From Suillus spraguei (taxonomy: Eukaryota; Basidiomycota; Agaricomycetes; Boletales; Suillaceae), in the NCBI GenBank assembly GCA_016800925.1, contig JABCPU010000157.1, positions 1 through 64,000 of the forward strand: a DNA stretch of 64,000 nucleotides, in the 5' to 3' direction. Shown piece by piece: positions 22,235 to 44,947 of the stretch (position 1 is its first letter; each line of letters begins with the position of its first letter). Made by a program: the position numbers and the translations under genes. The notes under the pieces are model-generated. The model was not told the DNA's origin. It saw nothing but the letters and a program-made list of their open reading frames with translations, and did no database searches.

Positions 22235-22343
22235 GCGTCTGGAATGCATGAAGGAAGCTAGCAGGAATGCCAAGTGCAGGTGCAGAGAATTGGAGGGACG
22301 GCTACAATACATCAACAGGCGTCTGGGGAATGACTGTATCTAG
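22235..22343 (+). pseudogene. Truncated 3' end of the chimeric coiled-coil gene
   Basis: Mirror of 44,350-44,242. It encodes only the last 36 residues (RLECMKEASRNAKCRCRELE, then GRLQYINRRLGNDCI) of the complete gene in the right arm. It has no start, promoter or upstream exons because the arm ends at 22,235. Confidence 0.85.
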
Positions 22344-22599
22344 TGCTTGCTATATGTTTTCCGGTTGTCTATTGTTAGATTTATACTGTTGGAAATGCAG
22401 AGAGAGTGTTTTCTAATGGCTGATAGCCCAATACGTTACGGCCTGGACAGCTGCCATATAAACAGAGTGTGTTTCTCAGTTCGTTTCTGTGTGTGGTGTG
22501 GTACCGATGTGACACAATAGTGACCAGCAGTGACTCCTTTGCGACGATCTTCGCCACAAAACAAGCATTTCTATAAGACAACTCCCAGCGTTCTATCAT

Positions 22600-22880
22600 C
22601 CTTCTATCATGCCAGAACAAGATGCTCAGATGCCTGGTACTTTCAGTATGGCCCGTCATGGGAGTACAGCGAGCACCACCTCCTATCGGGCACCATCAGT
22701 GCTCAATCCCGGTTTCTTCTGAACTGCATGATACAATGTTGGAGAGAGAGAGAATGTATATCAGCTATAGATTTTCGTCCCGAGTATCAGTGAGTGCCGC
22801 AGCATACCTATTCACTTGAACTAATGACTTGTCTTATATAACACAGCTATTGCACATCCAATTTGTTGTGTACGAGCATC
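22600..22880. repeat. Repeat R, left-arm copy
   Basis: Contains the block GAGCACCACCTCCTATCGGG, CACCATCAGTGCTCAATCCC and the GAGAGAGAGAATGTATATCA stretch. The same block is at 43,705-43,990 (mirror) and also in the spacer at 32,290-32,617, so it occurs more often than the palindrome alone explains. Confidence 0.8.
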
Positions 22881-23059
22881 CTACCAGGTAGCCAGCTGTT
22901 CATAAGACTGGTGGCTTTGCATAGCACACGCTAACATATATGCACATCCTGCTGGATCTCACAAGCAGATAAAGTGACTGCGGCAGCATTTGTGAAAGAT
23001 GGTGCGCATCAAAGCTATTACTTCTGACGCTCACGCCAATTATGATTCCCAGCATTCAA

Positions 23060-23540
23060 GGAACGAACAAATTTGCAACAGCGCGAGTCAGGAGAATGAT
23101 ATCGACAACTGACGATGATCACCGCACTCAAGAACTTTGTCAAAGACTTTGCAACACGCTATACCCAGCTTTTCAGGTTCCCCTCAATTGGTAACAGTCT
23201 GCATACTGGCCCCATGACCACCATGTCCAAAGCGGTAAAGTGCAACTGCAAGCTGGTCGGCAAGGGGAATTTGCTGGTTCTGGGAGTTGTTGTTGGTAAA
23301 CACAGAATCAGATGCAAGTTTGGTGAAGATTTGGCCAAAGGTATATGGGGATACTCGCAGACTCTCGCGAAATTTGTCAGGACGTCGTGGCTTTAGTATA
23401 TCTAGCACATGATACATTTGAGATGGGCCACGAGGAAGCTGATTGCGAGCCATCTGGTAGCGGTATATTGAAGGAAACCGGAGTGGCCTGTTAGCCAGGT
23501 CCCAACTTCCCTTGTCAGGAGAAGTAGGCAGCACGCACAC
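23060..23540 (-). pseudogene. PIF/Harbinger-type transposase, N-terminal fragment (left arm)
   Basis: Reads PSQMYHVLDILKPRRPDKFR, ESLRVSPYTFGQIFTKLASD, then ADQLAVALYRFGHGGHGASM ending QTVTN-stop, which resembles the helix-turn-helix leader of agaricomycete DDE4 (Harbinger-like) nucleases ahead of the catalytic domain. After QTVTN a stop occurs and no DDE residues follow. Its 5' side overlaps repeat D1. The mirror copy is at 43,045-43,525 on the plus strand. Confidence 0.6.
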
Positions 23541-23960
23541 GTCTGAATGACTTCAGTTCACGCGCCAACCTGGTAGGGAGGTGTCTGCACCACCAGAAAA
23601 ACAACATATCGCCCATTAGGAACCACAAGTTCACCATGATCTCAGTGAGAATCAGGCACAATGCCTCGCTGCAAAAAAAAATCAGACAAATGAATACATG
23701 GGCACAACCACTTTTCCTGCCCAGTCATGTCTGCCTGGAACACTGTCCCTTGACAGGAAATGGTCACATGGTGCGCAGATATATCTGGATGACTCTAGAG
23801 CACACGTCCCTTGTCAGGGGGGCGTCCATATTGCAACCACGCTCGGACATAGCATATCACAACGTGGTGGGTGGATGGAAGAAAAAGCTGAAGGTGGAGT
23901 AAGCAAATATAAACAAATCCTCAGGGCCAAATAAACCACTACACAACCACATAGGAAAAT
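23490..23960. repeat. Dispersed repeat D1, copy 2 (left arm)
   Basis: Same landmarks as copy 1 (TCATGTCTGCCTGGAACACT, GGGGGCGTCCATATTGCAAC, a GGATGGAAGAAAAAGCTGAA tail) in the plus orientation. It precedes the Harbinger-like fragment. Confidence 0.8.
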
Positions 23961-24535
23961 ACATTTTCCAACATGCTCGAAGACTGAAATAATTGCATTG
24001 TAGCGCCGTGGACACTGCAGTTCCTGACTCTGCGACCTTGCTACGGTTACCGACTTATCTTTAATACTCTGTGTCCTCAGTCATCTTGATTTTCACTTGC
24101 ATTTTGCATTCCATGTGCTGCTATGTCCGACCGCTATAAAATGTATCGCCGAGACTTTTGTAAAGACGGGCAAGCTGGTAGCTGTGAATGTTTTACTGAA
24201 CCCTCTAATCCTGATTGATGCCCCTTGCTGACGCACGACTTTAGCAAGCATTCTGACGCTCTGCATCCCACAAGAGATGCACATATTTACTGTCATTAAG
24301 TATGTGACATTGCAAACTTTGCCTTAGCCAAAAATGTCCACGCAGTCCATCATTCACAGCCATGTTCGTACTGTTAACTGGTGAGCCCCCTAATTTTAGC
24401 TTGTGCACGAAATACAATAACAAAGTCAATATTCTTTTGTGGGCTATGGTACTGGTAAATGATCCGATAGCAAGTACAAGACAAATAGTTCCTTTGCGGG
24501 TGAGTATATGGCATGATTTATATATTAAGACTTAT

Positions 24536-26378
24536 TCAGTATACTATCCCGCCTCTGTTTCTCAAATGCTGATGGAATATGATGGCTGACGACCAAAACA
24601 AGAAACCTCCTAGGATGACCACGGCGATTGTACATGGAACTGTGGTGATCAACGAATGACTTTGTGTGGTAAAAATTCCTGCAAGAAAGCCCAAAGTGGA
24701 TAAAGCCACGCTGGCGGTTTATTAATAAAGCCATCCGTACAGATTGTAACAAGTTGATGTTGATTACCTGGTGGTCCGAAATAAAGCAGGAGCACTGTAA
24801 ATGACCACAACCCTGGTACAATTGTCATTGAGATGCTGAGACTTCATGTAGTATCGAATCAGCATAGAGAGACAATCATGGTGGATCACACATACTGCAA
24901 AATCTAGAGACTTCATCTTTTCACCGAAGTGACGAGCCGTGACACCTGCGAATATGCAGTGGACGCTGAATACAAGTGAAAGGGAACACAGAGTCCTTGT
25001 TATGGCTTGAGATCCAATATCTGGAATAGCGAGTATACTAGCGTCTACCGCCATGATGACGCCCGCCTCGATGATGCAAGATGTCAACTTGGACGGCTTT
25101 CCCATATCAATATAGGAATATGCGCGTACCAGAGTGCTGTGTTTCACATTATCCTCGTTGAAACGGTCGACGAATTGGCTGATGTCCAGCGAGTTGACAA
25201 TTCCGTCCACATAGATATTGTCTATATGTTCCAAAACAAGTGCCGGTACTCCGAACATTGCAGCAGTCGCCAGTAAAAGAGGAAGGGTTCGCTTTCGCTT
25301 GGTGCCCTCTACAGAGTGAGACCTCATCAAACGAGCTTCCGGTAAACCGTAGTAGTTTAAAAATTGATGATGGCCTTATGTTATAAGTTAATGCAAAACA
25401 CTAGCTGCATTGGAGCAAAAGACACACGTAACATGCACCATATCCTTCCTAGGACTTCAGGATAAGTTCCGCTTATTTCAATGTATAAGTGGGCAATACA
25501 AACGTACCGCAAAATGCTACTCCTTGTTCCGTCATGAAATTATTAGATGAAGGATCACTCTCTACAAGATTTCGTTTGAACGTGAAGCACTAGTATATTT
25601 GAGTGACCTACCGAATCTGATAATACAGGATAATATTTTCTCTGCTTCCTCGTTGTTCCGAAACAACGAAGCTGCAGTCGATTGTTCTAAGGTCAGCCCC
25701 TCTGTAATGCATATTGAAATCAGTTCTGTAGTGTCTGCACTAGAATGTCGTACCTGCTAAAAACCATTCCAAGTGAGCTCGTAGCTCGCCCGCATCAGAA
25801 GGCCTCATTTCGTAATGACGCGGAAAGAAATCGACATGCTTCCTAATTTACATGCACATTAATGTCCAAATGCTGTTATACCATCTACCAATCACTATTA
25901 CCAAAATTGTGCTTCAAGTTCAAGACCTGCAAATTCAAGTCAGACCGCGCAGCGAGTTGGCAGGACTTTGGAACTTGCGTTTGTGGTTCCACTCCCGTGC
26001 AAATGCACACTCCTGAAAAAGCAGATGTGCGTCAAATGCATGAAACCAAGCAATGACATGCTGCTTTATGTCTGCACAGTAATATTCATAGCGATCGCCA
26101 TCCTGCCTGGCTATGGGTTCAACAACCAGAAACCACGTATCTTCCTGCAGTGTTCTGCGTGCCGCATCTATCCAATTATTTAGGTCACGCAATCGAAGGT
26201 GTGAGTATTCCTTTATGTTGGCTGCTGTATATGTTTTCTGTGCCATAGTGAGAGGGTGATGTGGACACAACCATATGTGACTTACTGTCTTTCTAGCAAA
26301 ATAGTACGTGATGCCTGCCGGGTGCACGATCTCCTCCCAATCGCCATACGTTTCGTTCCTGCTTATCATCAGCTTCAA
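24536..26378 (-). CDS. WW-domain multi-pass membrane protein (left-arm copy)
   Basis: Mirror of the right-arm gene at 40,207-42,049; see that entry for exons. The visible exons are all intact in this copy too, with a WW-like motif, an alpha-helical middle, five hydrophobic segments and a stop at 24,536-24,538. The mirror exons and all splice sites I checked are identical. The two copies should make the same protein if their promoters work, and transcripts running through both arms would be mutually complementary. Confidence 0.75.
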
Positions 26379-27382
26379 TGTGTTTCAATCGAGCAATTAG
26401 TCCCAGACCGAAATGCGTCGACTTGTTTCGACTGGATGCTATAATCAGGACCTAACAATGGATTACTGGGAAGAAGTATGTAAAGGAATGTGCTTAAGAG
26501 ATCAGTGGAAAAACCTTAACTGTATTACTGCTTTTGAATACCGCTGCCACTCAGACGGCCACGAAGGTATACTTCGACTTAGTAGATATTGATCAGAGTC
26601 TGTTTGGAGGCTCTGAACCATTTCTTTGTTTCAATATACACATGACATTTTCAGTGTTAGCAATTTCATGTCCAGATATATTCTCCGCACTACCGGAGTT
26701 TATATTATAACGGGGCGAGGCAGTACTATCCCTTCCACTGTAATCAGCACCCCAGAGAAGTTGGAACTTTCATAAAACTCACACTTCTAGCTACTTGAAC
26801 ACAAAATTCTTAGCATAGATACGATCTTTGCTCTAATACTTATCATAGTCAGCCTACAATCTGTACGCCCCAAATATTTTCTCTTCTGGGATGGTATAAC
26901 CTAACATTGCATATCGACATGTAAATCGGGCCAAGATGTGATGTGCAGGTTGCGAAATATGCAATTCTGACATATGCTACTTGCCAAGAAAAATACTACT
27001 CAGTTTTTATGGGGTGTTGTAAAAGCACGGTGGTTCGATTTTCAATTTTGTGTCTCAAATGCCGATTGATGACTGTATACATATCGTGGTCTATCACTGT
27101 GGGACACTCTGACACACCATACCTTCATGAATCCATCTTGTAACTTCCACGAGTGGAGCCCACACGATGCGCAGCAGTTCTTAAAAGTCAAGTGAACTAT
27201 CCAAGATATCGATGGAGAAAGGTCACTGGACAGTCACGCAAGGCATGCCTAATAGCTATAGCTGCCCACTATCTCTTGCCCCTGTCTGCGCTCAACAAAA
27301 AGTTGGCATTTACAGAAAGTGGCTTCCGTGCAACTATAATTAAACACAAGTGGGATACCGTTGTTGCTGTGGCATCAGATGA
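26379..27382. other. Unassigned arm sequence (left)
   Basis: About 1 kb upstream of the WW-domain gene. Part (26,520-26,730) resembles the decayed reading DLVDIDQSLFEGSEPISLFQ seen more openly at 51,317-51,565 on the minus strand, but in this arm the frame is interrupted. No gene is called. Confidence 0.4.
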
Positions 27383-27694
27383 TCATCCGAGGACCGACAT
27401 ACCTACATGATGAACCAGGAAGGTATTTGAAGGCGTACCTTTTCCTTTAACCTTATATAGTGATTTATCGTTCTCTGCAAGCATAGTCGCGAGGAATTCA
27501 AGGTAATTAGGTGCAGAGACATGAAACACAAATTCTTTGACCTTCATAGACTTCACCTCCTTGACTTTGGTTTTGCCATTGTTTTCTGTTGAGGTTCCTG
27601 TATATGTATCAAGATTTACAACAACAACAACAGTCTCAAATTGAGGTATTTCTGGCTCAGGGGGTATGGAAGGCAAAGTCATCACTGAAAGCAA
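27383..27694 (-). CDS. Unrecognised small fungal protein (left-arm copy)
   Basis: Mirror of 38,891-39,202, described there. The same open frame and the same ending. Confidence 0.45.
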   Translation of the reverse strand: MLSVMTLPSIPPEPEIPQFETVVVVVNLDTYTGTSTENNGKTKVKEVKSMKVKEFVFHVSAPNYLEFLATMLAENDKSLYKVKGKGTPSNTFLVHHVGMSVLG

Positions 27695-27984
27695 GTCTAC
27701 TGTCTACCTGAATGGTCCAGTGGTTACTGGGTTCGGATGTGTCCGAGATGCAAATTCAACTTTTGCGTTTCCGCATAATTATCGAAACAGCTGTAAAAAA
27801 AAGCACCTATGTGCATAAGGAAACCCGACCCCACATATTCAAATGTGCGAATTATTCCCCTTTCTGCAGTGTGTCAGTATTTGAATTGAACTGTGGCGTG
27901 AGAATATCACGTGATGTGAAGCTCATACATTTGTCTTCCGTGAATTTCCCTCTTTCCTCTTAACTATTACCTTTACTGGTGGTT

Positions 27985-28165
27985 TTCATGGGCATTCACT
28001 GTCGATGATGGTGTGGCCACTTCGCTCCTGGCTTCTGTTGCGGTTTCTCGCCTTTATGGGCGCTCACTGTCGATGATGGTGGTCACTTCACTCCTGGCTT
28101 CTGTTGTGGTTTCTCGCCTTTATGGGCGTTCACTGTCGGTGATGGTGGCCAACTTCACTTTTTGT
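27985..28165. repeat. ~63-bp tandem repeat (left arm)
   Basis: Two and a half copies of a unit with TCGATGATGGT, CTTCTGTTG(C/T)GGTTTCTCGC and CTTTATGGGCG(C/T)TCACTG. The mirror is at 38,420-38,600. No coding role is evident. Confidence 0.8.
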
Positions 28166-28536
28166 CGTCGCATTCTTAGAGTGCATTATAATACTGGACA
28201 ACTCACGCTACAAGAATGGTCCTTCTCTTGTCTGCTGTCCTGGTCCCAGTAGCCTCCCAAGAATCTAAGTTCTCTTTTGTGTCAGTGGGCCCTGCAGGAC
28301 TCTGGGCGGCTTTTGCTTGCCTTTGCCATTGCTGAATTCTGGCCAGCAGCAAGGCGTGTCTCCAGCAACTCCCTCATCGTGGTCATCGGCAGCCACACCA
28401 CTCGAATAACGCGCCGTTCGGCGATCGAATAACACCGGATTTCAGAGTCTGTACAGCTGATGCTGAACGAAAACAACAAACCATTGAAACCAACTCGTTT
28501 TCCACAGACAGTCGAAAACAGCGTCGACAACGAACT

Positions 28537-29310
28537 TTGAACGTCCTTAATGCCATTCTCATTGGATTCATGAACTTATCTATGTATGCTAAGTACTACC
28601 TGACAGGTAAATATACTTGTAATTATTATATAATTTTGCTTCAGACACACCAGCGGCACGGACTACTCAAGATGCCACAACGAACGCAAAGGCAAGTGCA
28701 AGTACAAAATTTAATTATGTTTACATTGCAGGTAAAGAAAAAAATTTGCCTGCGTCGCCAATGGAGGCTCGAAAGTCTTACAGGGCATGAGTTCAACAGC
28801 TCAGATGGTGTTCTCGAGAATGGAGACTCCTCCTTTTCAGACTTGAACTCCAATACTAGTATGTCCCTGAGTTCCGACTCGAGCTCCCCCACCACTGGGG
28901 GCTCCTTGTCTTCTACGTCCGAGTCAGACACCAATGAACCTTCAGACGACTCGTCTGTATACTCTTCGCTGCGGGAGCCTTCATTTTCAACACACATTCA
29001 AGCATATGATCATATTCCGATTGTTTCTTCAAGGACAATGATGAGGTTTGGTGTCGGGCAACTGTGAATGTGACCTTGTATCGTCGTAGGTGAGTTTCTT
29101 CGGTTTCAGTGTTTCTGAGATACATTTGAGTACTTGGGCCTTGAGGGTATCAAAAGATTTTCATCGTTCGAAAGCTTGATGATTGCAGGTTCTCCACTTC
29201 TCTTCGCTTTTGGTTTCTTCATTTCAGAGTAGGAAAACATTACGAGAGTATATGAGATTGAAACCATAAGTGGTAGAGGTACTGACAATGTCTTACGGGT
29301 CATCCTTCAG
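28537..29310 (-). CDS. Unrecognised spliced gene, acidic/serine-rich (left-arm copy)
   Basis: Mirror of 37,275-38,048, described under the right-arm copy. The plus strand also has a 176-codon frame here, but the minus strand has the more protein-like reading. Confidence 0.35.
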
Positions 29311-29584
29311 GTATTCAATAGCATTTTACCCTCCTTAGGCTTGAGAGGGGTGACCAGGCTTGTGCTTCGTAATTTACAGTGAGTCTACTAGTTCATCCAA
29401 GGTGGGTTCTACAATACAGTACACTTTCTCATAATGTATAGCGACGGGAGCTGCCTTTTCGCTATACAATATGAGAGATATACACTACCAAATAATTCCC
29501 TCGGCAGAGGGGTCAACCAAGATTGGGGGTGTCAATGCATAGTCCAGAAATCAATACATTCAGCGAGTACATCGAAACGGTATG

Positions 29585-30187
29585 TTACTTAGTATTCCAT
29601 AATTGATCCAATGTAGCCTGCTTTGCATTCTGCAATTGCTCGCGTCGTGGTGTTGCTCGGAATGCGCGAAGTTTATGAATAAGATCAAGTGAAGAATCAG
29701 CGCCAGCTCGCGCAATACACGCAACTTCGAGCTTTTCACACAGCGGAATCAATTCAGCAACACAGACCTTGGGTTGATCATCCTCGTCTTCATCATCTGA
29801 TTCTACTTCAACCAGCTCCCCGCTCCTAATTCCTTGCCGGCGCCGAATTTCTGCAACAATTGCGTCATCATCTTCATAAACATAAACAGTTACTTCCCCA
29901 ATGTTCTTCTCTTCTTGAGGGTCGAGAATCTCGTCAACAGACAGCGGTGTGCCAATGATCCGTCTTCGTGTTGTAAGCTCCTCTATGGACTTCATCAATT
30001 TATGTTCGAGAGTTTGGAGCTGAGGTGACTTGGTGAGAAGTGGAATTTTGATAGTGAGCCCAGTTCGTCGACATGCAACTGATGCAAGTTTCTCGACAGT
30101 TTCGGCCGCTTTGGCAGGTTTTAGACGTGACTGGCGTTTCTTAGGGCTGCGCACCATTGGGACTAGATTGACTATAAAATTTTCCAT
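29585..30187 (-). CDS. Pogo-like DDE transposase C-terminal domain (left-arm copy)
   Basis: Mirror of 36,401-37,003; see that entry. The 200-residue open frame is identical in both arms. Confidence 0.6.
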   Translation of the reverse strand: MENFIVNLVPMVRSPKKRQSRLKPAKAAETVEKLASVACRRTGLTIKIPLLTKSPQLQTLEHKLMKSIEELTTRRRIIGTPLSVDEILDPQEEKNIGEVTVYVYEDDDAIVAEIRRRQGIRSGELVEVESDDEDEDDQPKVCVAELIPLCEKLEVACIARAGADSSLDLIHKLRAFRATPRREQLQNAKQATLDQLWNTK

Positions 30188-30949
30188 CTTACTACATTGT
30201 TATGCATCAGTTTCTGGCAACTCCGCAGTAGTCCTACTCAGTACAAACCATATCTCATAGTGTATATCGGACCTCCGAAGGCTATACATTATACATTATA
30301 CAATTTTTAGGGCGTCTACCCGCATACCACGATGGGGGCTGCCAAAACTCGATACAAGATGAGATTTATACATTACTAACGTATGCATTATGAAAAAGTG
30401 TACTGTAATAGTTTCATCCTGAGGATTGTGCGGGTCCCTAACAGCCGCTGTGATCGAGTCGTCGTCAGAGTCCATAGAATCAGATGAAATCGAGTCGGGC
30501 ATATGAAGTTTCAAGATAGCTGTAGCTAGTATGCGTGATAGGACGCGTCATTTGCTCCTATGTATGTATGATTTATTTATTTATTCTTTCTCAAAAGGGC
30601 GTATACTGTTATCATTTATGCAAACGGCTATAAATCGTGGCAAAATTGTTGGGTATTTTGAGAATATCAGGCCTCAATCTGCATGATATCAGCCATTGGA
30701 GTCCATATTGGAAAATAACCAGAAACAACCAGTCAATGTAGCATGTAGTGACTTTTTCGTTTGAGTATAATTTGGTGCACTTCGAAACATTTAATCCAAT
30801 TGCAGTCGATGTAGTCACTCACCTCGCCAGTGGAAACATAGTTTTCCCTTGCACATGATATGTCGGTTACCTCATTGTGAGGATGAAACATGAGCGAAAT
30901 GGCCTTTGACTTTCTGGATACCTTCCCATTTGAATTCTGCACCTCATGT

Positions 30950-31045
30950 GGGTAACTCAATACTGTGGTTAGCTGTGGGTAACTTGATAGTGTGGTCAAC
31001 TGTGGTCGACGTGATACTGCGGTCTACTGCGGTTAACTGGATACT
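30950..31045. repeat. Degenerate TGTGGTTAACTG repeats (left arm)
   Basis: Four to five imperfect copies of a 22-24-bp unit such as GTGGTTAGCTGTGGGTAACT, about 200 bp upstream of the coiled-coil gene. The mirror is at 35,543-35,638. It could be a promoter-proximal minisatellite. Confidence 0.7.
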
Positions 31046-31247
31046 GTGAATAATCCATTGAATCGGAATCTTGGAGTGGTCCCGTCATCCGTTTGTAGAT
31101 TTAATGTAGATAATAGTGTGGTTAATTCGGCACCACTGTCCACAGTCCCTTCCTTTATAATCTCGTCCGTTTCCTTACGAATACCGTACTTTTTATTTCC
31201 ACTTTACTCATTCATCTTATCTGACGACTTTACAGTCCCATCTTATC

Positions 31248-31841
31248 ATGTCTGGTAAATACAACAAACGTCCCGCAGAGGAAGACCTGTTGGCTTCGAA
31301 CACGAGCAAACGCTCTAGGATTGCTTCAGGTGAAGGTTACAGGAAGGGCTCAGACGTGTGCCAGGTATTTACTTATCTAATTTCTCTTCCCATTGTCACA
31401 TCTAATGAAGTTGATTGTTAATAGGACGAGGACTTTCGCTCCATAAGTCCAGATTCAACTATCAGCTGGCAGGACCCACACGAGCTTTGGGAAACAGTCA
31501 ATCGCTTGAAGGCTGAAGTCAAAAAACTGTTGAAGGATCGTAAAAGGATGCTGCTCGAACATCAGAAAGAAGTGACAGGACATGAATTCCGTCTTGCATC
31601 CTTGGAATACGCAGCTCTGTGCGAGCGGGAACGCAGCGACGATTTGCAATCTGATGTCCAACATCAGAAAGTGAAGTTCAACAAGCAACAGAAATGTATC
31701 AAACGTCTTCAGGCGCGCAAGGAGAGAGATGGGAAGGATATTCACAGGCTAATGGACGTTGTACGTGAAAAGGACACGACGATCAACGACTTGTCAGATC
31801 GACTTGTTGAAGTCATTCAGAGCAATGCCAGTGATTTTTAA
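31248..31841 (+). CDS. Coiled-coil family protein CC1 (left arm)
   Basis: Two exons, 31,248-31,364 and 31,425-31,841, joined by a 60-bp GT-AG intron, give 177 residues. The N-terminus MSGKYNKRPAEEDLLASNTS is basic and has the family pattern M-S-x4-K-R-x-A-E. Exon 2 starts DEDFRSISPDSTISWQDP and then is a long heptad-rich coiled coil (RLKAEVKKLLKDRKRMLLEH through VREKDTTINDLSDRLVEVIQ). There is no signal peptide or membrane segment. Nuclear or scaffold function is inference from composition only. The ATG is supported by the homologous start in seven other copies. The last ten codons lie beyond the inner edge of the palindrome and differ from the mirror gene. Confidence 0.75.
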
Positions 31842-31879
31842 TTTTATACGTACATAGATTAGAATCTATCTCTTGCTTC

Positions 31880-32262: not shown

Positions 32263-32289
32263 GGATTTAATCGAGATTCTGCTCCTTCG

Positions 32290-34746: not shown

Positions 34747-35340
34747 TTAAGAAGGAATGGCAGTGATATGAACGAATTCAACAAGTCGATCTGACAAGTC
34801 GTTGATCGTCGTGTCCTTTTCACGTACAACGTCCATTAGCCTGTGAATATCCTTCCCATCTCTCTCCTTGCGCGCCTGAAGACGTTTGATACATTTCTGT
34901 TGCTTGTTGAACTTCACTTTCTGATGTTGGACATCAGATTGCAAATCGTCGCTGCGTTCCCGCTCGCACAGAGCTGCGTATTCCAAGGATGCAAGACGGA
35001 ATTCATGTCCTGTCACTTCTTTCTGATGTTCGAGCAGCATCCTTTTACGATCCTTCAACAGTTTTTTGACTTCAGCCTTCAAGCGATTGACTGTTTCCCA
35101 AAGCTCGTGTGGGTCCTGCCAGCTGATAGTTGAATCTGGACTTATGGAGCGAAAGTCCTCGTCCTATTAACAATCAACTTCATTAGATGTGACAATGGGA
35201 AGAGAAATTAGATAAGTAAATACCTGGCACACGTCTGAGCCCTTCCTGTAACCTTCACCTGAAGCAATCCTAGAGCGTTTGCTCGTGTTCGAAGCCAACA
35301 GGTCTTCCTCTGCGGGACGTTTGTTGTATTTACCAGACAT
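34747..35340 (-). CDS. Coiled-coil family protein CC3 (right arm)
   Basis: Mirror of CC1: exons 35,340-35,224 and 35,163-34,747, 177 residues. It is identical to CC1 up to residue ~167 (SDRLVE), after which it reads FVHITAIPS where CC1 has VIQSNASDF. The switch coincides with the inner edge of the right arm at 34,777. The 3' flank beyond the edge is homologous to, but clearly diverged from, that of CC1. Confidence 0.75.
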
Positions 35341-36073
35341 GATAAGATGGGACTGTAAAGTCGTCAGATAAGATGAATGAGTAAAGTGGAAATAAAAAGT
35401 ACGGTATTCGTAAGGAAACGGACGAGATTATAAAGGAAGGGACTGTGGACAGTGGTGCCGAATTAACCACACTATTATCTACATTAAATCTACAAACGGA
35501 TGACGGGACCACTCCAAGATTCCGATTCAATGGATTATTCACAGTATCCAGTTAACCGCAGTAGACCGCAGTATCACGTCGACCACAGTTGACCACACTA
35601 TCAAGTTACCCACAGCTAACCACAGTATTGAGTTACCCACATGAGGTGCAGAATTCAAATGGGAAGGTATCCAGAAAGTCAAAGGCCATTTCGCTCATGT
35701 TTCATCCTCACAATGAGGTAACCGACATATCATGTGCAAGGGAAAACTATGTTTCCACTGGCGAGGTGAGTGACTACATCGACTGCAATTGGATTAAATG
35801 TTTCGAAGTGCACCAAATTATACTCAAACGAAAAAGTCACTACATGCTACATTGACTGGTTGTTTCTGGTTATTTTCCAATATGGACTCCAATGGCTGAT
35901 ATCATGCAGATTGAGGCCTGATATTCTCAAAATACCCAACAATTTTGCCACGATTTATAGCCGTTTGCATAAATGATAACAGTATACGCCCTTTTGAGAA
36001 AGAATAAATAAATAAATCATACATACATAGGAGCAAATGACGCGTCCTATCACGCATACTAGCTACAGCTATC
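35341..36073. other. Upstream region of CC3
   Basis: Holds the CC-type upstream block (about 35,430-35,500), the TGTGGTTAACTG repeats (35,543-35,638) and a stretch (35,640-35,930) with the reading VSDYIDCNWIKCFEVHQIIL that recurs in altered form upstream of CC6 (60,010-60,130). I do not call a gene. The mirror is 30,515-31,247. Confidence 0.4.
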
Positions 36074-36330
36074 TTGAAACTTCATATGCCCGACTCGATT
36101 TCATCTGATTCTATGGACTCTGACGACGACTCGATCACAGCGGCTGTTAGGGACCCGCACAATCCTCAGGATGAAACTATTACAGTACACTTTTTCATAA
36201 TGCATACGTTAGTAATGTATAAATCTCATCTTGTATCGAGTTTTGGCAGCCCCCATCGTGGTATGCGGGTAGACGCCCTAAAAATTGTATAATGTATAAT
36301 GTATAGCCTTCGGAGGTCCGATATACACTA
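36074..36330 (+). other. Unrecognised short frame and hairpin-like flank
   Basis: A 72-codon frame with an acidic start (PDSISSDSMDSDDDSITAAV), followed by TATAATGTATAATGTATAGC and GATATACACTATGAGATATG. The latter resembles, inverted, the TATACATTATGAGAAAGTGT stretch at 37,147, so the pair may be remnants of terminal inverted repeats around the transposase-derived frame. Confidence 0.35.
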
Positions 36331-36400
36331 TGAGATATGGTTTGTACTGAGTAGGACTACTGCGGAGTTGCCAGAAACTGATGCATAACAATGTAGTAAG

Positions 36401-37003
36401 ATGGAAAATTTTATAGTCAATCTAGTCCCAATGGTGCGCAGCCCTAAGAAACGCCAGTCACGTCTAAAACCTGCCAAAGCGGCCGAAACTGTCGAGAAAC
36501 TTGCATCAGTTGCATGTCGACGAACTGGGCTCACTATCAAAATTCCACTTCTCACCAAGTCACCTCAGCTCCAAACTCTCGAACATAAATTGATGAAGTC
36601 CATAGAGGAGCTTACAACACGAAGACGGATCATTGGCACACCGCTGTCTGTTGACGAGATTCTCGACCCTCAAGAAGAGAAGAACATTGGGGAAGTAACT
36701 GTTTATGTTTATGAAGATGATGACGCAATTGTTGCAGAAATTCGGCGCCGGCAAGGAATTAGGAGCGGGGAGCTGGTTGAAGTAGAATCAGATGATGAAG
36801 ACGAGGATGATCAACCCAAGGTCTGTGTTGCTGAATTGATTCCGCTGTGTGAAAAGCTCGAAGTTGCGTGTATTGCGCGAGCTGGCGCTGATTCTTCACT
36901 TGATCTTATTCATAAACTTCGCGCATTCCGAGCAACACCACGACGCGAGCAATTGCAGAATGCAAAGCAGGCTACATTGGATCAATTATGGAATACTAAG
37001 TAA
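36401..37003 (+). CDS. Pogo-like DDE transposase C-terminal domain (right-arm copy)
   Basis: An intact 200-residue frame: MENFIVNLVPMVRSPKKRQS, AKAAETVEKLASVA, SIEELTTRRRIIGTPLSVDE, an acidic stretch (VEVESDDEDEDDQPK), LIPLCEKLEVACIA and LRAFRATPRREQLQNAKQ then TLDQLWNTK. It is the kind of tail that follows the DDE nuclease in fungal pogo/Fot1-type transposases, where C-terminal acidic and CEKLE-type helices are common. The helix-turn-helix and DDE catalytic parts are absent, so it cannot transpose. The frame is open in both arms. It is either a recent remnant or a host gene derived from the tail. Confidence 0.6.
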   Translation: MENFIVNLVPMVRSPKKRQSRLKPAKAAETVEKLASVACRRTGLTIKIPLLTKSPQLQTLEHKLMKSIEELTTRRRIIGTPLSVDEILDPQEEKNIGEVTVYVYEDDDAIVAEIRRRQGIRSGELVEVESDDEDEDDQPKVCVAELIPLCEKLEVACIARAGADSSLDLIHKLRAFRATPRREQLQNAKQATLDQLWNTK

Positions 37004-37200
37004 CATACCGTTTCGATGTACTCGCTGAATGTATTGATTTCTGGACTATGCATTGACACCCCCAATCTTGGTTGACCCTCTGCCGAGGGAATTATTTGGT
37101 AGTGTATATCTCTCATATTGTATAGCGAAAGGCAGCTCCCGTCGCTATACATTATGAGAAAGTGTACTGTATTGTAGAACCCACCTTGGATGAACTAGTA
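37004..37200. repeat. Imperfect hairpin downstream of the transposase remnant
   Basis: AGTGTATATCTCTCATATTG...GCGAAAGGCAGC and TCCCGTCGCTATACATTATG...AGTGTACT face each other around 37,099-37,166 with only a few mismatches. It looks like a terminal inverted repeat or a short hairpin element. In the mirror (29,420-29,490) two of the three arm-to-arm base differences lie nearby. Confidence 0.6.
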
Positions 37201-37274
37201 GACTCACTGTAAATTACGAAGCACAAGCCTGGTCACCCCTCTCAAGCCTAAGGAGGGTAAATGCTATTGAATAC

Positions 37275-38048
37275 CTGAAGGATGACCCGTAAGACATTGT
37301 CAGTACCTCTACCACTTATGGTTTCAATCTCATATACTCTCGTAATGTTTTCCTACTCTGAAATGAAGAAACCAAAAGCGAAGAGAAGTGGAGAACCTGC
37401 AATCATCAAGCTTTCGAACGATGAAAATCTTTTGATACCCTCAAGGCCCAAGTACTCAAATGTATCTCAGAAACACTGAAACCGAAGAAACTCACCTACG
37501 ACGATACAAGGTCACATTCACAGTTGCCCGACACCAAACCTCATCATTGTCCTTGAAGAAACAATCGGAATATGATCATATGCTTGAATGTGTGTTGAAA
37601 ATGAAGGCTCCCGCAGCGAAGAGTATACAGACGAGTCGTCTGAAGGTTCATTGGTGTCTGACTCGGACGTAGAAGACAAGGAGCCCCCAGTGGTGGGGGA
37701 GCTCGAGTCGGAACTCAGGGACATACTAGTATTGGAGTTCAAGTCTGAAAAGGAGGAGTCTCCATTCTCGAGAACACCATCTGAGCTGTTGAACTCATGC
37801 CCTGTAAGACTTTCGAGCCTCCATTGGCGACGCAGGCAAATTTTTTTCTTTACCTGCAATGTAAACATAATTAAATTTTGTACTTGCACTTGCCTTTGCG
37901 TTCGTTGTGGCATCTTGAGTAGTCCGTGCCGCTGGTGTGTCTGAAGCAAAATTATATAATAATTACAAGTATATTTACCTGTCAGGTAGTACTTAGCATA
38001 CATAGATAAGTTCATGAATCCAATGAGAATGGCATTAAGGACGTTCAA
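37275..38048 (+). CDS. Unrecognised spliced gene, acidic/serine-rich (right-arm copy)
   Basis: Successive plus-strand stretches look coding: MKKPKAKRSGEPAIIK, ETEETHLRRYKVTFTVARHQ then TSSLSLKKQSEYDHMLECVL and KMKAPAAK, and an acidic run (SSEGSLVSDSDVEDKEPPVV). I remember similar order (a beta-rich VTF-VARH segment, then LKMKxPAAKI) in agaricomycete proteins of unknown role. Exon joins are not resolved and a stop occurs at 37,479, so it may be broken. The opposite strand has a 176-codon frame that I judge a shadow. Confidence 0.35.
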
Positions 38049-38419
38049 AGTTCGTTGTCGACGCTGTTTTCGACTGTCTGTGGAAAACGAGTTGGTTTCA
38101 ATGGTTTGTTGTTTTCGTTCAGCATCAGCTGTACAGACTCTGAAATCCGGTGTTATTCGATCGCCGAACGGCGCGTTATTCGAGTGGTGTGGCTGCCGAT
38201 GACCACGATGAGGGAGTTGCTGGAGACACGCCTTGCTGCTGGCCAGAATTCAGCAATGGCAAAGGCAAGCAAAAGCCGCCCAGAGTCCTGCAGGGCCCAC
38301 TGACACAAAAGAGAACTTAGATTCTTGGGAGGCTACTGGGACCAGGACAGCAGACAAGAGAAGGACCATTCTTGTAGCGTGAGTTGTCCAGTATTATAAT
38401 GCACTCTAAGAATGCGACG

Positions 38420-38600
38420 ACAAAAAGTGAAGTTGGCCACCATCACCGACAGTGAACGCCCATAAAGGCGAGAAACCACAACAGAAGCCAGGAGTGAAGT
38501 GACCACCATCATCGACAGTGAGCGCCCATAAAGGCGAGAAACCGCAACAGAAGCCAGGAGCGAAGTGGCCACACCATCATCGACAGTGAATGCCCATGAA
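38420..38600. repeat. ~63-bp tandem repeat (right arm)
   Basis: Mirror of 27,985-28,165, with CCCATAAAGGCGAGAAACC recurring about 63 bp apart. Confidence 0.8.
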
Positions 38601-38890
38601 AACCACCAGTAAAGGTAATAGTTAAGAGGAAAGAGGGAAATTCACGGAAGACAAATGTATGAGCTTCACATCACGTGATATTCTCACGCCACAGTTCAAT
38701 TCAAATACTGACACACTGCAGAAAGGGGAATAATTCGCACATTTGAATATGTGGGGTCGGGTTTCCTTATGCACATAGGTGCTTTTTTTTACAGCTGTTT
38801 CGATAATTATGCGGAAACGCAAAAGTTGAATTTGCATCTCGGACACATCCGAACCCAGTAACCACTGGACCATTCAGGTAGACAGTAGAC

Positions 38891-39202
38891 TTGCTTTCAG
38901 TGATGACTTTGCCTTCCATACCCCCTGAGCCAGAAATACCTCAATTTGAGACTGTTGTTGTTGTTGTAAATCTTGATACATATACAGGAACCTCAACAGA
39001 AAACAATGGCAAAACCAAAGTCAAGGAGGTGAAGTCTATGAAGGTCAAAGAATTTGTGTTTCATGTCTCTGCACCTAATTACCTTGAATTCCTCGCGACT
39101 ATGCTTGCAGAGAACGATAAATCACTATATAAGGTTAAAGGAAAAGGTACGCCTTCAAATACCTTCCTGGTTCATCATGTAGGTATGTCGGTCCTCGGAT
39201 GA
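38891..39202 (+). CDS. Unrecognised small fungal protein (right-arm copy)
   Basis: The 103-codon frame includes PPEPEIPQFETVVVVVNLDT, a short Lys-rich linker, VKEFVFHVSAPNYLEFLATM and LAENDKSLYKVKGKG. The second half resembles in layout the VTF-VARH/YDHML stretch of the neighbouring gene at 37.5 kb, so the two may be relatives. A GTAGGT donor lies at its end (39,180), so more exons may follow. Function is unknown. The likely true start is one of the Met residues near the beginning. Confidence 0.45.
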   Translation: MLSVMTLPSIPPEPEIPQFETVVVVVNLDTYTGTSTENNGKTKVKEVKSMKVKEFVFHVSAPNYLEFLATMLAENDKSLYKVKGKGTPSNTFLVHHVGMSVLG

Positions 39203-40206
39203 TCATCTGATGCCACAGCAACAACGGTATCCCACTTGTGTTTAATTATAGTTGCACGGAAGCCACTTTCTGTAAATGCCAACTTTTTGTTGAGCGCAGA
39301 CAGGGGCAAGAGATAGTGGGCAGCTATAGCTATTAGGCATGCCTTGCGTGACTGTCCAGTGACCTTTCTCCATCGATATCTTGGATAGTTCACTTGACTT
39401 TTAAGAACTGCTGCGCATCGTGTGGGCTCCACTCGTGGAAGTTACAAGATGGATTCATGAAGGTATGGTGTGTCAGAGTGTCCCACAGTGATAGACCACG
39501 ATATGTATACAGTCATCAATCGGCATTTGAGACACAAAATTGAAAATCGAACCACCGTGCTTTTACAACACCCCATAAAAACTGAGTAGTATTTTTCTTG
39601 GCAAGTAGCATATGTCAGAATTGCATATTTCGCAACCTGCACATCACATCTTGGCCCGATTTACATGTCGATATGCAATGTTAGGTTATACCATCCCAGA
39701 AGAGAAAATATTTGGGGCGTACAGATTGTAGGCTGACTATGATAAGTATTAGAGCAAAGATCGTATCTATGCTAAGAATTTTGTGTTCAAGTAGCTAGAA
39801 GTGTGAGTTTTATGAAAGTTCCAACTTCTCTGGGGTGCTGATTACAGTGGAAGGGATAGTACTGCCTCGCCCCGTTATAATATAAACTCCGGTAGTGCGG
39901 AGAATATATCTGGACATGAAATTGCTAACACTGAAAATGTCATGTGTATATTGAAACAAAGAAATGGTTCAGAGCCTCCAAACAGACTCTGATCAATATC
40001 TACTAAGTCGAAGTATACCTTCGTGGCCGTCTGAGTGGCAGCGGTATTCAAAAGCAGTAATACAGTTAAGGTTTTTCCACTGATCTCTTAAGCACATTCC
40101 TTTACATACTTCTTCCCAGTAATCCATTGTTAGGTCCTGATTATAGCATCCAGTCGAAACAAGTCGACGCATTTCGGTCTGGGACTAATTGCTCGATTGA
40201 AACACA
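39203..40206. other. Unassigned arm sequence (right)
   Basis: Mirror of 26,379-27,382. No gene is supported. The part from about 39,650 to 39,760 (CCATCCCAGAAGAGAAAATA) has a diverged relative at 63,880-64,000, and 39,880-40,206 has one at 51,310-51,670. Confidence 0.4.
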
Positions 40207-42049
40207 TTGAAGCTGATGATAAGCAGGAACGAAACGTATGGCGATTGGGAGGAGATCGTGCACCCGGCAGGCATCACGTACTATTTTGCTAGAAAGACAG
40301 TAAGTCACATATGGTTGTGTCCACATCACCCTCTCACTATGGCACAGAAAACATATACAGCAGCCAACATAAAGGAATACTCACACCTTCGATTGCGTGA
40401 CCTAAATAATTGGATAGATGCGGCACGCAGAACACTGCAGGAAGATACGTGGTTTCTGGTTGTTGAACCCATAGCCAGGCAGGATGGCGATCGCTATGAA
40501 TATTACTGTGCAGACATAAAGCAGCATGTCATTGCTTGGTTTCATGCATTTGACGCACATCTGCTTTTTCAGGAGTGTGCATTTGCACGGGAGTGGAACC
40601 ACAAACGCAAGTTCCAAAGTCCTGCCAACTCGCTGCGCGGTCTGACTTGAATTTGCAGGTCTTGAACTTGAAGCACAATTTTGGTAATAGTGATTGGTAG
40701 ATGGTATAACAGCATTTGGACATTAATGTGCATGTAAATTAGGAAGCATGTCGATTTCTTTCCGCGTCATTACGAAATGAGGCCTTCTGATGCGGGCGAG
40801 CTACGAGCTCACTTGGAATGGTTTTTAGCAGGTACGACATTCTAGTGCAGACACTACAGAACTGATTTCAATATGCATTACAGAGGGGCTGACCTTAGAA
40901 CAATCGACTGCAGCTTCGTTGTTTCGGAACAACGAGGAAGCAGAGAAAATATTATCCTGTATTATCAGATTCGGTAGGTCACTCAAATATACTAGTGCTT
41001 CACGTTCAAACGAAATCTTGTAGAGAGTGATCCTTCATCTAATAATTTCATGACGGAACAAGGAGTAGCATTTTGCGGTACGTTTGTATTGCCCACTTAT
41101 ACATTGAAATAAGCGGAACTTATCCTGAAGTCCTAGGAAGGATATGGTGCATGTTACGTGTGTCTTTTGCTCCAATGCAGCTAGTGTTTTGCATTAACTT
41201 ATAACATAAGGCCATCATCAATTTTTAAACTACTACGGTTTACCGGAAGCTCGTTTGATGAGGTCTCACTCTGTAGAGGGCACCAAGCGAAAGCGAACCC
41301 TTCCTCTTTTACTGGCGACTGCTGCAATGTTCGGAGTACCGGCACTTGTTTTGGAACATATAGACAATATCTATGTGGACGGAATTGTCAACTCGCTGGA
41401 CATCAGCCAATTCGTCGACCGTTTCAACGAGGATAATGTGAAACACAGCACTCTGGTACGCGCATATTCCTATATTGATATGGGAAAGCCGTCCAAGTTG
41501 ACATCTTGCATCATCGAGGCGGGCGTCATCATGGCGGTAGACGCTAGTATACTCGCTATTCCAGATATTGGATCTCAAGCCATAACAAGGACTCTGTGTT
41601 CCCTTTCACTTGTATTCAGCGTCCACTGCATATTCGCAGGTGTCACGGCTCGTCACTTCGGTGAAAAGATGAAGTCTCTAGATTTTGCAGTATGTGTGAT
41701 CCACCATGATTGTCTCTCTATGCTGATTCGATACTACATGAAGTCTCAGCATCTCAATGACAATTGTACCAGGGTTGTGGTCATTTACAGTGCTCCTGCT
41801 TTATTTCGGACCACCAGGTAATCAACATCAACTTGTTACAATCTGTACGGATGGCTTTATTAATAAACCGCCAGCGTGGCTTTATCCACTTTGGGCTTTC
41901 TTGCAGGAATTTTTACCACACAAAGTCATTCGTTGATCACCACAGTTCCATGTACAATCGCCGTGGTCATCCTAGGAGGTTTCTTGTTTTGGTCGTCAGC
42001 CATCATATTCCATCAGCATTTGAGAAACAGAGGCGGGATAGTATACTGA
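40207..42049 (+). CDS. WW-domain multi-pass membrane protein (right-arm copy)
   Basis: A WW-like motif (DWEEIVHPAGITYYFARKT) precedes an intron and then KTYTAANIKEYSHLRLRDLN, VIAWFHAFDAHLLFQ and EWNHK. Exons follow with LELEAQFWKHVDFFPRHYEM, SDAGELRAHLEWFLAEGLTL, EAEKILSCIIRF and HHQFLNYYGLPEARLMRSHS. The rest is membrane-rich: LPLLLATAAMFGVPALVLEH, VIMAVDASILAIP, TLCSLSLVFSVHCIFAGVTA, FTVLLLYFGPPGIF and TVPCTIAVVILGGFLFW, ending GGIVY-stop at 42,047-42,049. Inferred introns: 40,300-40,347; 40,607-40,658 (GC-AG); 40,684-40,742; 40,832-40,883; 40,974-41,023; about 41,078-41,210; and three later ones. Each keeps the frame. Agaricomycetes have many such WW-domain membrane proteins of unknown role; WW domains bind proline-rich peptides. 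The 5' end is not resolved. Confidence 0.78.
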
Positions 42050-42624
42050 ATAAGTCTTAATATATAAATCATGCCATATACTCACCCGCAAAGGAACTAT
42101 TTGTCTTGTACTTGCTATCGGATCATTTACCAGTACCATAGCCCACAAAAGAATATTGACTTTGTTATTGTATTTCGTGCACAAGCTAAAATTAGGGGGC
42201 TCACCAGTTAACAGTACGAACATGGCTGTGAATGATGGACTGCGTGGACATTTTTGGCTAAGGCAAAGTTTGCAATGTCACATACTTAATGACAGTAAAT
42301 ATGTGCATCTCTTGTGGGATGCAGAGCGTCAGAATGCTTGCTAAAGTCGTGCGTCAGCAAGGGGCATCAATCAGGATTAGAGGGTTCAGTAAAACATTCA
42401 CAGCTACCAGCTTGCCCGTCTTTACAAAAGTCTCGGCGATACATTTTATAGCGGTCGGACATAGCAGCACATGGAATGCAAAATGCAAGTGAAAATCAAG
42501 ATGACTGAGGACACAGAGTATTAAAGATAAGTCGGTAACCGTAGCAAGGTCGCAGAGTCAGGAACTGCAGTGTCCACGGCGCTACAATGCAATTATTTCA
42601 GTCTTCGAGCATGTTGGAAAATGT

Positions 42625-43095
42625 ATTTTCCTATGTGGTTGTGTAGTGGTTTATTTGGCCCTGAGGATTTGTTTATATTTGCTTACTCCACCTTCAGCTT
42701 TTTCTTCCATCCACCCACCACGTTGTGATATGCTATGTCCGAGCGTGGTTGCAATATGGACGCCCCCCTGACAAGGGACGTGTGCTCTAGAGTCATCCAG
42801 ATATATCTGCGCACCATGTGACCATTTCCTGTCAAGGGACAGTGTTCCAGGCAGACATGACTGGGCAGGAAAAGTGGTTGTGCCCATGTATTCATTTGTC
42901 TGATTTTTTTTTGCAGCGAGGCATTGTGCCTGATTCTCACTGAGATCATGGTGAACTTGTGGTTCCTAATGGGCGATATGTTGTTTTTCTGGTGGTGCAG
43001 ACACCTCCCTACCAGGTTGGCGCGTGAACTGAAGTCATTCAGACGTGTGCGTGCTGCCTACTTCTCCTGACAAGGGAAGTTGGGACCTGGCTAAC
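42625..43095. repeat. Dispersed repeat D1, copy 3 (right arm)
   Basis: Mirror of 23,490-23,960, minus orientation. Confidence 0.8.
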
Positions 43096-43525
43096 AGGCC
43101 ACTCCGGTTTCCTTCAATATACCGCTACCAGATGGCTCGCAATCAGCTTCCTCGTGGCCCATCTCAAATGTATCATGTGCTAGATATACTAAAGCCACGA
43201 CGTCCTGACAAATTTCGCGAGAGTCTGCGAGTATCCCCATATACCTTTGGCCAAATCTTCACCAAACTTGCATCTGATTCTGTGTTTACCAACAACAACT
43301 CCCAGAACCAGCAAATTCCCCTTGCCGACCAGCTTGCAGTTGCACTTTACCGCTTTGGACATGGTGGTCATGGGGCCAGTATGCAGACTGTTACCAATTG
43401 AGGGGAACCTGAAAAGCTGGGTATAGCGTGTTGCAAAGTCTTTGACAAAGTTCTTGAGTGCGGTGATCATCGTCAGTTGTCGATATCATTCTCCTGACTC
43501 GCGCTGTTGCAAATTTGTTCGTTCC
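43045..43525 (+). pseudogene. PIF/Harbinger-type transposase, N-terminal fragment (right arm)
   Basis: Mirror of 23,060-23,540. The frame from 43,045 covers the HTH-like leader and stops at 43,399-43,401 where relatives continue with Trp into the nuclease. Confidence 0.6.
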
Positions 43526-43704
43526 TTGAATGCTGGGAATCATAATTGGCGTGAGCGTCAGAAGTAATAGCTTTGATGCGCACCATCTTTCACAAATGCT
43601 GCCGCAGTCACTTTATCTGCTTGTGAGATCCAGCAGGATGTGCATATATGTTAGCGTGTGCTATGCAAAGCCACCAGTCTTATGAACAGCTGGCTACCTG
43701 GTAG

Positions 43705-43990
43705 GATGCTCGTACACAACAAATTGGATGTGCAATAGCTGTGTTATATAAGACAAGTCATTAGTTCAAGTGAATAGGTATGCTGCGGCACTCACTGATA
43801 CTCGGGACGAAAATCTATAGCTGATATACATTCTCTCTCTCTCCAACATTGTATCATGCAGTTCAGAAGAAACCGGGATTGAGCACTGATGGTGCCCGAT
43901 AGGAGGTGGTGCTCGCTGTACTCCCACGACGGGCCATACTGAAAGTACCAGGCATCTGAGCATCTTGTTCTGGCATGATAGAAGGATGAT
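43705..43990. repeat. Repeat R, right-arm copy
   Basis: Mirror of 22,600-22,880 and direct copy of spacer 32,290-32,540. Confidence 0.8.
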
Positions 43991-44241
43991 AGAACGCTGG
44001 GAGTTGTCTTATAGAAATGCTTGTTTTGTGGCGAAGATCGTCGCAAAGGAGTCACTGCTGGTCACTATTGTGTCACATCGGTACCACACCACACACAGAA
44101 ACGAACTGAGAAACACACTCTGTTTATATGGCAGCTGTCCAGGCCGTAACGTATTGGGCTATCCGCCATTAGAAAACACTCTCTCTGCATTTCCAACAGT
44201 ATAAATCTAACAATAGACAACCGGAAAACATATAGCAAGCA

Positions 44242-44947
44242 CTAGATACAGTCATTCCCCAGACGCCTGTTGATGTATTGTAGCCGTCCCTCCAATTCTC
44301 TGCACCTGCACTTGGCATTCCTGCTAGCTTCCTTCATGCATTCCAGACGCTGCTCCATCATCCTGATATTTGCCTCTAGGCATCGCCTTCCTTCAGGATC
44401 AAGCTTCCTCCTCTTTCTTATACTCCCGTCCCAATTGTTCGGCCGTTTGCCGAGCAGGATTACATCGCTTGAGGAATAAGATGGACTTTGTGAATGCGGA
44501 GGATCATCTTCTTGGACGGCTGTGACATGGGCTGCTTTCAGTGTAGTTAGACATGGTGGTATTGAGTGAACAGACATACTATTGCTGTGTGGCTCCTGGC
44601 AGGTTACACCAGGTTCGTCCGGTCGATACATGCAGTCTTGCATCATAGAGATGCATTGAGAACACCCAGAGTGCTGAGGTGCAATAGCCGTCATTTGTTT
44701 GTTGAGTGAGTGATTCGCTGAACCGTTGCATGGGATTATTAGTACATAGCGGGTTAGATTCAAATGACACAAATACCTTGTTTAGGATTTGGGGACCGTA
44801 AAATTGTAAGATCATCCTGAAATTCATGTCACATTTTGTATAGAAAAGTTTGATGGAAGAAAATACCATGGAGGTGTGAGTGTGCCCGGGTGACTTTACA
44901 GAGGAAATGTTGCGCTCTGCACACTGTTTTTTTGTACACTCGGACAT
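44242..44947 (-). CDS. Chimeric coiled-coil/cysteine-motif protein CC4
   Basis: Exons 44,947-44,867, 44,816-44,777 and 44,717-44,242 with GT-AG introns of 50 and 59 bp total 597 nt, 198 residues plus stop, in frame throughout. Exon 1 (MSECTKKQCAERNISSVKSP...) is nearly identical to exon 1 of CC5b. Exon 2 begins DDLTILRSPNPKQ like the CC5 genes. Exon 3 then departs: CSQCISMMQDC (C-x2-C-x6-C) with a following CQEP, a Ser-rich linker, VILLGKRPNNWDGSIRKRRK and a short coiled coil with CRELEGRLQYI. This second half parallels the cysteine-rich gene at 55.4-56.1 kb (CEYCRRMGNFC, CQER, VISLNEQPSDW, CRELEHELSHL). The gene straddles the outer edge of the palindrome. Confidence 0.75.

Follow-up and report, generated by a model that had tools for sequence, protein, structure and literature searches.

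A palindrome with near-identical 9.57-kb arms in Suillus spraguei, probably a recent inverted duplication seeded by inverted paralogs

Introduction

The palindromes of primate Y chromosomes carry multi-gene arms of >99.9% identity around a unique spacer, and breakage-fusion-bridge cycles are a further process by which palindromes form. In yeast, inverted repeats near a double-strand break drive inverted duplication (PMC10622511), and repeats as far as 30 kb apart interact in single-stranded DNA, with suppression reported there only beyond 25% heterology (PMC10164571). Long conversion tracts arise via several routes in the yeast system described in PMC8473981, and the mating loci of Cryptococcus contain divergent inverted copies of pheromone genes that PMC12510652 proposes as promoters of inversion and as templates for conversion. 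We found no literature on large palindromes with near-identical arms in fungal genomes, most subscription papers lying outside the scope of that search, and we do not claim that such palindromes are new to fungi. Here, we describe such a palindrome, designated P1, in the ectomycorrhizal mushroom Suillus spraguei; it lies in bases 1–64,000 (the window) of a 148,454-bp contig containing 0 N, C322, from an assembly of 86.2 Mb in 1256 contigs, and is read here from the assembled contig. Near-identical inverted duplications are an already known kind of structure; what is unusual in P1 is its readable seed, copied tract and scar, and the orphan-gene locus in which these are found. We argue that P1 is real and recent, an inverted duplication for which inverted paralogs served as the seed, repair-copied from one of them (G3) and end-joined on its left side, a reading to which we assign a probability of about 0.6.

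Results

Arms and spacer of P1

Self-BLAST and global alignment return the same numbers as the first-pass annotation of the window, which had reported two inverted arms with constant coordinate sums (66585 and 66588) separated by only two substitutions and three 1-bp indels, and its estimate of a ~2.97-kb spacer becomes 2965 bp (Table 1). The substitutions place T and A at positions 22421 and 22658 of the left arm where the right arm (44164 and 43927), read in the orientation of the left, has G each time, and the indels at 29324, 29456, and 29509 are homopolymer length changes (TTTT/TTT, TTTT/TTT, and GGGG/GGG) in which the left arm is always the longer. The substitution divergence between the arms is 0.021% (2 in ~9574 bp; 95% interval 0.0025–0.0755%), and chance is not an issue as a source of 9.57 kb of inverted identity. 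The assembly keeps haplotypes separate in places, as seen from pheromone-receptor matches on contigs C47 and C692 and from contig C582, which is ~98% identical to C322:72920–55957. Substitution divergence between C322 and C582 is 128/7757 (1.65%) and 157/9166 (1.71%) in two comparisons elsewhere on the contig; the arms of P1 differ by 0.021% rather than by ~1.7%, and therefore do not represent a pair of such haplotypes fused to one another. No allele was found in the assembly for ~19.7 to 53 kb of C322 among the matches listed.

A transposon with long terminal inverted repeats was considered and rejected, given that none of the 64 listed matches to the arm covers its full length except the other arm; the remaining genomic matches reach at most ~1 kb, at 81% identity (39 of 280 candidates scored, the counts being lower bounds). 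No second full-length copy of the spacer was found in the assembly (40 of 50 candidates scored), and a Pfam search of the left arm in six frames, with stops read as X, gave no family in any of the six at E ≤ 0.1. A mating-type locus palindrome was also rejected: all 19 matches to STE3 fall on C47 and C692 and the three to Homeobox_KN on C325 and C647, with none on C322.

The inner edge lies within an old inverted gene pair

Beyond what had been annotated, homology between the two sides runs past 31811 and 34777 at ~72% identity for a further ~124 bp each. These inner edges fall inside two members of a family of two-exon coiled-coil genes, G1 on the left and G3 on the right, and a third member, G2, lies in the spacer (Table 1). 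Inside the arms, G1 and G3 are 100% identical over 679 columns, and just outside, identity falls to 72.1% over 104 columns, so that this edge of P1 lies within older inverted-repeat homology; the two products differ in about the last 10 residues only. The homology of G2 stops at about the same place (31935 against G1 and 34654 against G3), which would be expected of a gene unit and not of a longer old palindrome. Because the tails of G1 and G3 are 79.8% and 79.3% identical to that of G2, near the 77.1% identity of the G1 and G2 genes, the tails are explained by three old paralogs. On these identities, three old paralogs, one on the plus strand and two on the minus strand, would have stood here, and the identity of G1 and G3 as far as 31811 would be of recent date.

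The left inner edge is also found in P0002, a protein encoded on a separate 4911-bp contig, which is a piece of G1 and is identical to it on both sides of 31811. This contig corresponds to no other contig of the present assembly, in which all three G1 matches sit on C322. No match to a 31-base stretch of the tail of G1 was found in viral_contigs or in genome_contigs, searches from which near records may be left out.

The outer edge is one-sided and carries a templated insert

The 1-kb outer flanks, beyond 22161 on the left and 44350 on the right, share no significant similarity (best match 17 bp, E 0.12), and the left junction is filled by an exact 73-bp copy of arm sequence with 0 shared bases seen at either end; unlike flanks combined with an exact templated insert are a signature of end joining or template switching. 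On the right, an open reading frame (ORF), H44, runs across the edge, and only 22233–22340 of it remains in the left arm. The similarity of H44 to a second ORF, H55, covers 44466–44260 and so both sides of 44350 (31.9% over 69 amino acids, E 2e-5), consistent with a right-hand sequence that is continuous past the tract and a left-hand sequence that is not. Part of the arm (22634–22889) has a 97% copy in the spacer, and because that copy reads G like the right arm, the A at 22658 of the left arm is probably the derived base. ORF continuity, the 73-bp insert and base 22658 all suggest that the left arm was copied from the right.

A 55-bp piece of the spacer is also an exact copy of arm sequence. 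Its counterpart in the arm (22666–22720) overlaps the possible source of the 73-bp insert (22712–22784) by nine bases, GTTTCTTCT, and the segment 22162–32617 has GTTTCTTCT at both its start and its end. An introner reading of the 73-bp piece was rejected: it has 10 genome matches, and relatives on C869, C315, C191, and C333 match also past its GT end; it therefore looks like part of a longer repeat and not like a precisely mobile intron.

Table 1. Coordinates of P1, its edges and associated genes in the window
Feature	Position	Strand	Remarks
Left arm of P1	22235-31811	+	9577 bp; by self-BLAST and global alignment; putative newly copied arm
Right arm of P1	34777-44350	-	9574 bp; reverse complement of left arm; putative donor
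Spacer of P1	31812-34776	.	2965 bp; holds paralog G2 and repeat fragments
G1	31248-31838	+	two-exon coiled-coil gene crossing left inner edge; model by eye
G1 structure	exon 1 31248-31364, intron 31365-31424, exon 2 31425-31838	+	model by eye
G2	32830-33429	-	spacer paralog; hypothetical protein BDR07DRAFT_1378780 (P0003); 77.1% nucleotide identity to G1
G3	34750-35340	-	paralog crossing right inner edge; hypothetical protein BDR07DRAFT_1378781 (P0001)
G1 tail outside arm	31812-31935	+	72.1% identity to G3 tail, 79.8% to G2 tail
G3 tail outside arm	34653-34776	-	79.3% identity to G2 tail
H44	44245-44781	-	ORF spanning right outer edge 44350; left-arm counterpart cut off at 22235
73-bp insert	22162-22234	+	fills outer junction of left arm; exactly matches 22712-22784 and, in right arm, 43801-43873
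Copy of 73-bp insert in left arm	22712-22784	+	possible source; right arm holds the same
Spacer copy of arm 22634-22889	32291-32548	-	97% identity
55-bp spacer piece	32563-32617	+	exact copy of 22666-22720; 54/55 complementary to 32462-32516
Gene block	53250-56349	+	3.1 kb; inverted repeat at C322:138645-141718, 98%; C582 changes flanks within
H53 exon 2	53104-53481	-	coiled-coil family; inverted pair with H54
H54 exon 2	54397-54786	+	coiled-coil family; identical protein at C322:140208-140597
H60 exon 2	60429-60827	+	coiled-coil family; inverted pair with H62
H62 exon 2	61801-62178	-	coiled-coil family

Other palindromes and inverted repeats on the contig

A second palindrome, C322:68188–76218 and 76483–84513, has arms of 8031 bp with 0 differences (95% upper limit 0.046%) around a spacer of 264 bp. 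C582 tracks the flank on its left side and then 4.7 kb of outer arm sequence before departing at 72920, and the spacer of this second palindrome contains two adjacent pieces of the gene block (76230–76396 and 76438–76480) in opposite orientation. We do not claim the same mechanism for this palindrome, the spacer of which fits a fold-back with a small central loss and not a paralog-internal edge. A third self-complementary stretch, C322:145045–148454 (96.7%), is truncated by the contig end, and C582 (61,905 bp), which also contains an 804-bp inverted repeat, ends in an allele of it (58497–61905, 97.8% self-complementary). The last 1730 bases of the two contigs, the right half of this third palindrome, are identical; as the whole shared stretch is ~98.4% alike, the third palindrome may be an assembly end effect.

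When tracked from C322:72920 down through the gene block at 53250–56349, C582 goes on into C322:140532–148454, a change of flank that would reflect either a switch by the assembler within the repeat or an inversion of ~85 kb that distinguishes the haplotypes. Inverted gene pairs of greater age are found at 53/54 kb (68%) and at 60/62 kb (79%). The first-pass annotation had further suggested that arms of this kind can drive inversion and hairpin instability; the setting fits, C322 carrying two palindromes besides P1 as well as a possible inversion, and for the arms of P1 themselves such instability is a prediction.

A coiled-coil gene family nearly confined to the locus

Exon 1 was found for all 11 of the second exons tried, three of which (G3, H78, and H140) are copies of others; H44, H55, H75, and a fragment at 131.7 kb were left out of this test, and H44 and H55 may form a separate group. 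All 11 first exons begin with the form M[SC]....K[RQ].AE, part of which was fixed by the search pattern, and a Lys at residue 21, outside that pattern, is present in 9 of the 11 (absent in H54 and H140). The two-exon coiled-coil genes searched are nearly confined to C322 and its allele: in addition to G1, for which every match is on C322, H54 has 12 genome matches, seven on C322, two on C582, and three elsewhere (short fragments with stops, 40%). In a search of ~5.8 billion proteins at E ≤ 0.01, G1 matched two proteins and G2 and H54 one each, three of the four being from S. spraguei and the fourth P0002; because this search needs shared 5-residue words, distant relatives may be missed.

The ratio of nonsynonymous to synonymous divergence (dN/dS) is 0.66 to 0.85 for the old pairs (H53/H54, H54/H74, G1/G2, G2/G3, and H60/H62) and 0.33 to 0.34 for the younger pairs (H53/H74 and H55/H75). 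H60 has a dN/dS of 0.17 relative to its allele, and H55 differs from its allele by five nonsynonymous and 0 synonymous changes. Exon 2 is open in 12 of 13 sequences, the exception being H141 with one stop, which is no test of constraint because most were chosen as open frames. Pfam searches with single exons or ORFs returned four families for G1, 51 for H54 (25 shown), 17 for H60, and 0 for H44; the matches shown for G1, H54, and H60 all fall below curated cut-offs, and most are to coiled-coil families. These observations fit weakly constrained, fast-changing proteins.

Remaining features of the window and contig

A scan of C322 for telomere-like runs found no instance of ≥3 TTAGGG/CCCTAA units in a row, and searches returned 0 RNA families at the gathering score and 0 tRNAs (with the bacterial code). 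The left end of the contig (262–7932) consists of dense tandem arrays with units of 177 bp, ~299 bp, and ~905 bp (99.9% alike) and with units of the GTTGCACCAA type. The left flank of P1 at 9000–12343 and 12879–19720 is mostly repeats, with many 97 to 99% copies, whole or partial, on other contigs, and nearby are pieces matching the Cell morphogenesis N-terminal family (PF14222; 8484–8972, plus strand) and ribonucleotide reductase small chain (PF00268; 20844–21308, minus strand). To the right of P1, 47502–48923 forms a direct repeat with C322:115679–117096 (78%) with ORFs in each copy, the two tested in the window having no Pfam match. The part of C322 that runs from the second palindrome to the end of the contig holds an ABC transporter ORF (91124–93001), helicase-like ORFs (104600–107362; DEAD and Helicase_C), and, in a repeated stretch, ORFs at C322:100838–101569 (minus), 119270–119989 (plus), and 143709–144428 (plus) that begin with MARTKQTARR, MARTKQTSRR, and MVRTKQTARR, starts close to the N-terminal tail of histone H3. 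The one of these three tested, at 119270, has no Pfam match.

Discussion

Proposed repair copying from an inverted paralog

Arm identity, the chimeric inner edge, the one-sided outer edge, and the templated insert are read directly from the assembled contig. From these we infer a break, a right-to-left direction of copying, an order of steps and the enzymes engaged, as follows. The starting locus would have carried three old two-exon coiled-coil genes, G1 on the plus strand and G2 and G3 on the minus strand. A double-strand break within the old G1 would have left a right-hand end bearing the G1 tail (31812 onward), and this end may have paired, by annealing or by invasion, with the inverted paralog G3 some 3 kb away, a homeologous interaction. 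Synthesis would then have proceeded outward from G3 along 34777–44350 for 9.57 kb and halted within H44, after which 73 bp would have been re-copied from ~0.5 kb back and the new arm sealed onto the left flank at 22161 by end joining. The final sequence could be the same whether it was produced by long-tract conversion or break-induced copying or by fold-back priming followed by a join to the left flank, and inverted pairs of the coiled-coil family would leave the locus prone to such events.

Several points weigh against this account. The tails that would have paired are 28% diverged, slightly past the 25% heterology that suppresses interaction in the one yeast system described in PMC10164571, and the H44–H55 similarity used for direction is weak. 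The shared GTTTCTTCT of the 55-bp piece and the 73-bp insert is left unexplained by repair copying, and the insert starts with GT and ends with AG, as an intron would, although this is probably chance. The 4911-bp contig encoding P0002 may not be an independent source, and the assembly matches listed include no empty-site allele that would show the locus before the event.

Alternative histories of P1

The first-pass annotation had offered either a very recent event or ongoing conversion between the arms. The latter would make P1 an old palindrome of the primate Y type, held identical by continuing arm-to-arm gene conversion from which the innermost ~124 bp escaped and diverged. Two substitutions in ~9574 bp are what such maintenance would leave, as is an abrupt drop within continuing homology, and a second palindrome on the same contig has arms that are 100% identical. 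An old palindrome is not needed, however, when the tails have diverged like the G1–G2 paralogs and end with the gene unit, and conversion would have had to cover 9.57 kb yet never reach the last 124 bp; we consider this history unlikely. A recent single event fits the edges better, because one edge is homologous and lies in an old inverted pair, the other is nonhomologous with a templated insert, and the ORF across it is unbroken on just one of the two sides; some conversion of one arm by the other could still have taken place afterwards.

Improbable in our estimate, too, is that P1 was made by the assembly, either from a chimeric or mis-joined long read or through an erroneous join of two haplotypes within an inverted repeat, which had been named as the main alternative from the outset. 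P1 is indeed read from assembled sequence; all three arm indels are homopolymer length differences, a usual long-read error, and the identical final 1730 bases of C322 and C582 suggest that the assembler had trouble with palindromes. Arms that are far closer than haplotypes nevertheless argue against fused alleles, the differing flanks, 2965-bp spacer, gene-internal chimeric edge, and templated insert do not resemble a hairpin read that lacks a spacer, and P0002 crosses the left inner edge on another contig, so that the artefact explanation is weakened. Finally, a circular or mobile intermediate may have inserted, given that 22162–32617 is bounded by GTTTCTTCT, the 73- and 55-bp end pieces abut in the arm, and the overlap of their counterparts there is exactly this word. 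Such a circle would need a further event for the G3 edge, and no other full copy of the arm is found in the genome among the matches listed; the 55-bp piece is, moreover, a near-perfect local hairpin copy (54/55) of 32462–32516, and we take the circle to be a highly improbable route.

Significance

If the duplication copied from G3 is real, P1 is a natural case whose sequence reveals the seed (diverged inverted paralogs), the tract that was copied and in which direction, and the scar that end joining left, in a basidiomycete locus that holds several inverted repeats of differing ages. P1 would illustrate how palindromes can arise from an inverted pair of genes and how an orphan family can thereby be renewed, and it would allow arm-to-arm conversion outside sex chromosomes to be tested in a fungus whose two nuclei can be separated. 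It is tempting, if quite doubtful, to see C322 as a one-locus factory for an orphan, fast-changing two-exon coiled-coil family that grows by repeated inverted duplication, with old inverted pairs seeding the next palindromes, and conceivably as a self-recognition or meiotic-drive locus.

Comparison with known systems

P1 resembles the palindromes of the primate Y chromosome in its multi-gene, near-identical arms around a unique spacer; in contrast, its contig is not a mating-type contig and its arms are shorter. The inverted pheromone-gene copies of Cryptococcus (PMC12510652) are likewise basidiomycete gene copies in opposite orientation, but the genes described there are mating-type genes, whereas C322 carries an orphan coiled-coil family and no mating-type gene was found on it. 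Breakage-fusion-bridge, the palindrome-forming process named above, has its fungal example in an accessory chromosome (PMC3681731), from which C322 differs in having no chromosome-end sign of the kind scanned for here.

The yeast systems are closest in mechanism to the history that we propose. Long-tract gene conversion or break-induced replication, as outlined in PMC8473981, shares with P1 a kilobase tract copied off a homologous template; that account concerns a fragile site and homologous chromosomes, whereas copying in P1 would have been ectopic and inverted, and closed without homology and with a templated insert. The repeats described in PMC10164571 resemble the G1 and G3 tails in being inverted, divergent and kilobases apart, and they can interact when the DNA is single-stranded, but they are experimental Alu repeats in a yeast mutant, where heterology of >25% is suppressive. 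In PMC10622511, as in the history proposed for P1, inverted repeats lie close by, the DNA past these repeats is copied, and an inverted duplication results. The product described there is a dicentric chromosome that is later stabilized, whereas the palindrome P1 is interstitial, with unlike flanks on its two sides, and the repeats that would have seeded it are diverged genes.

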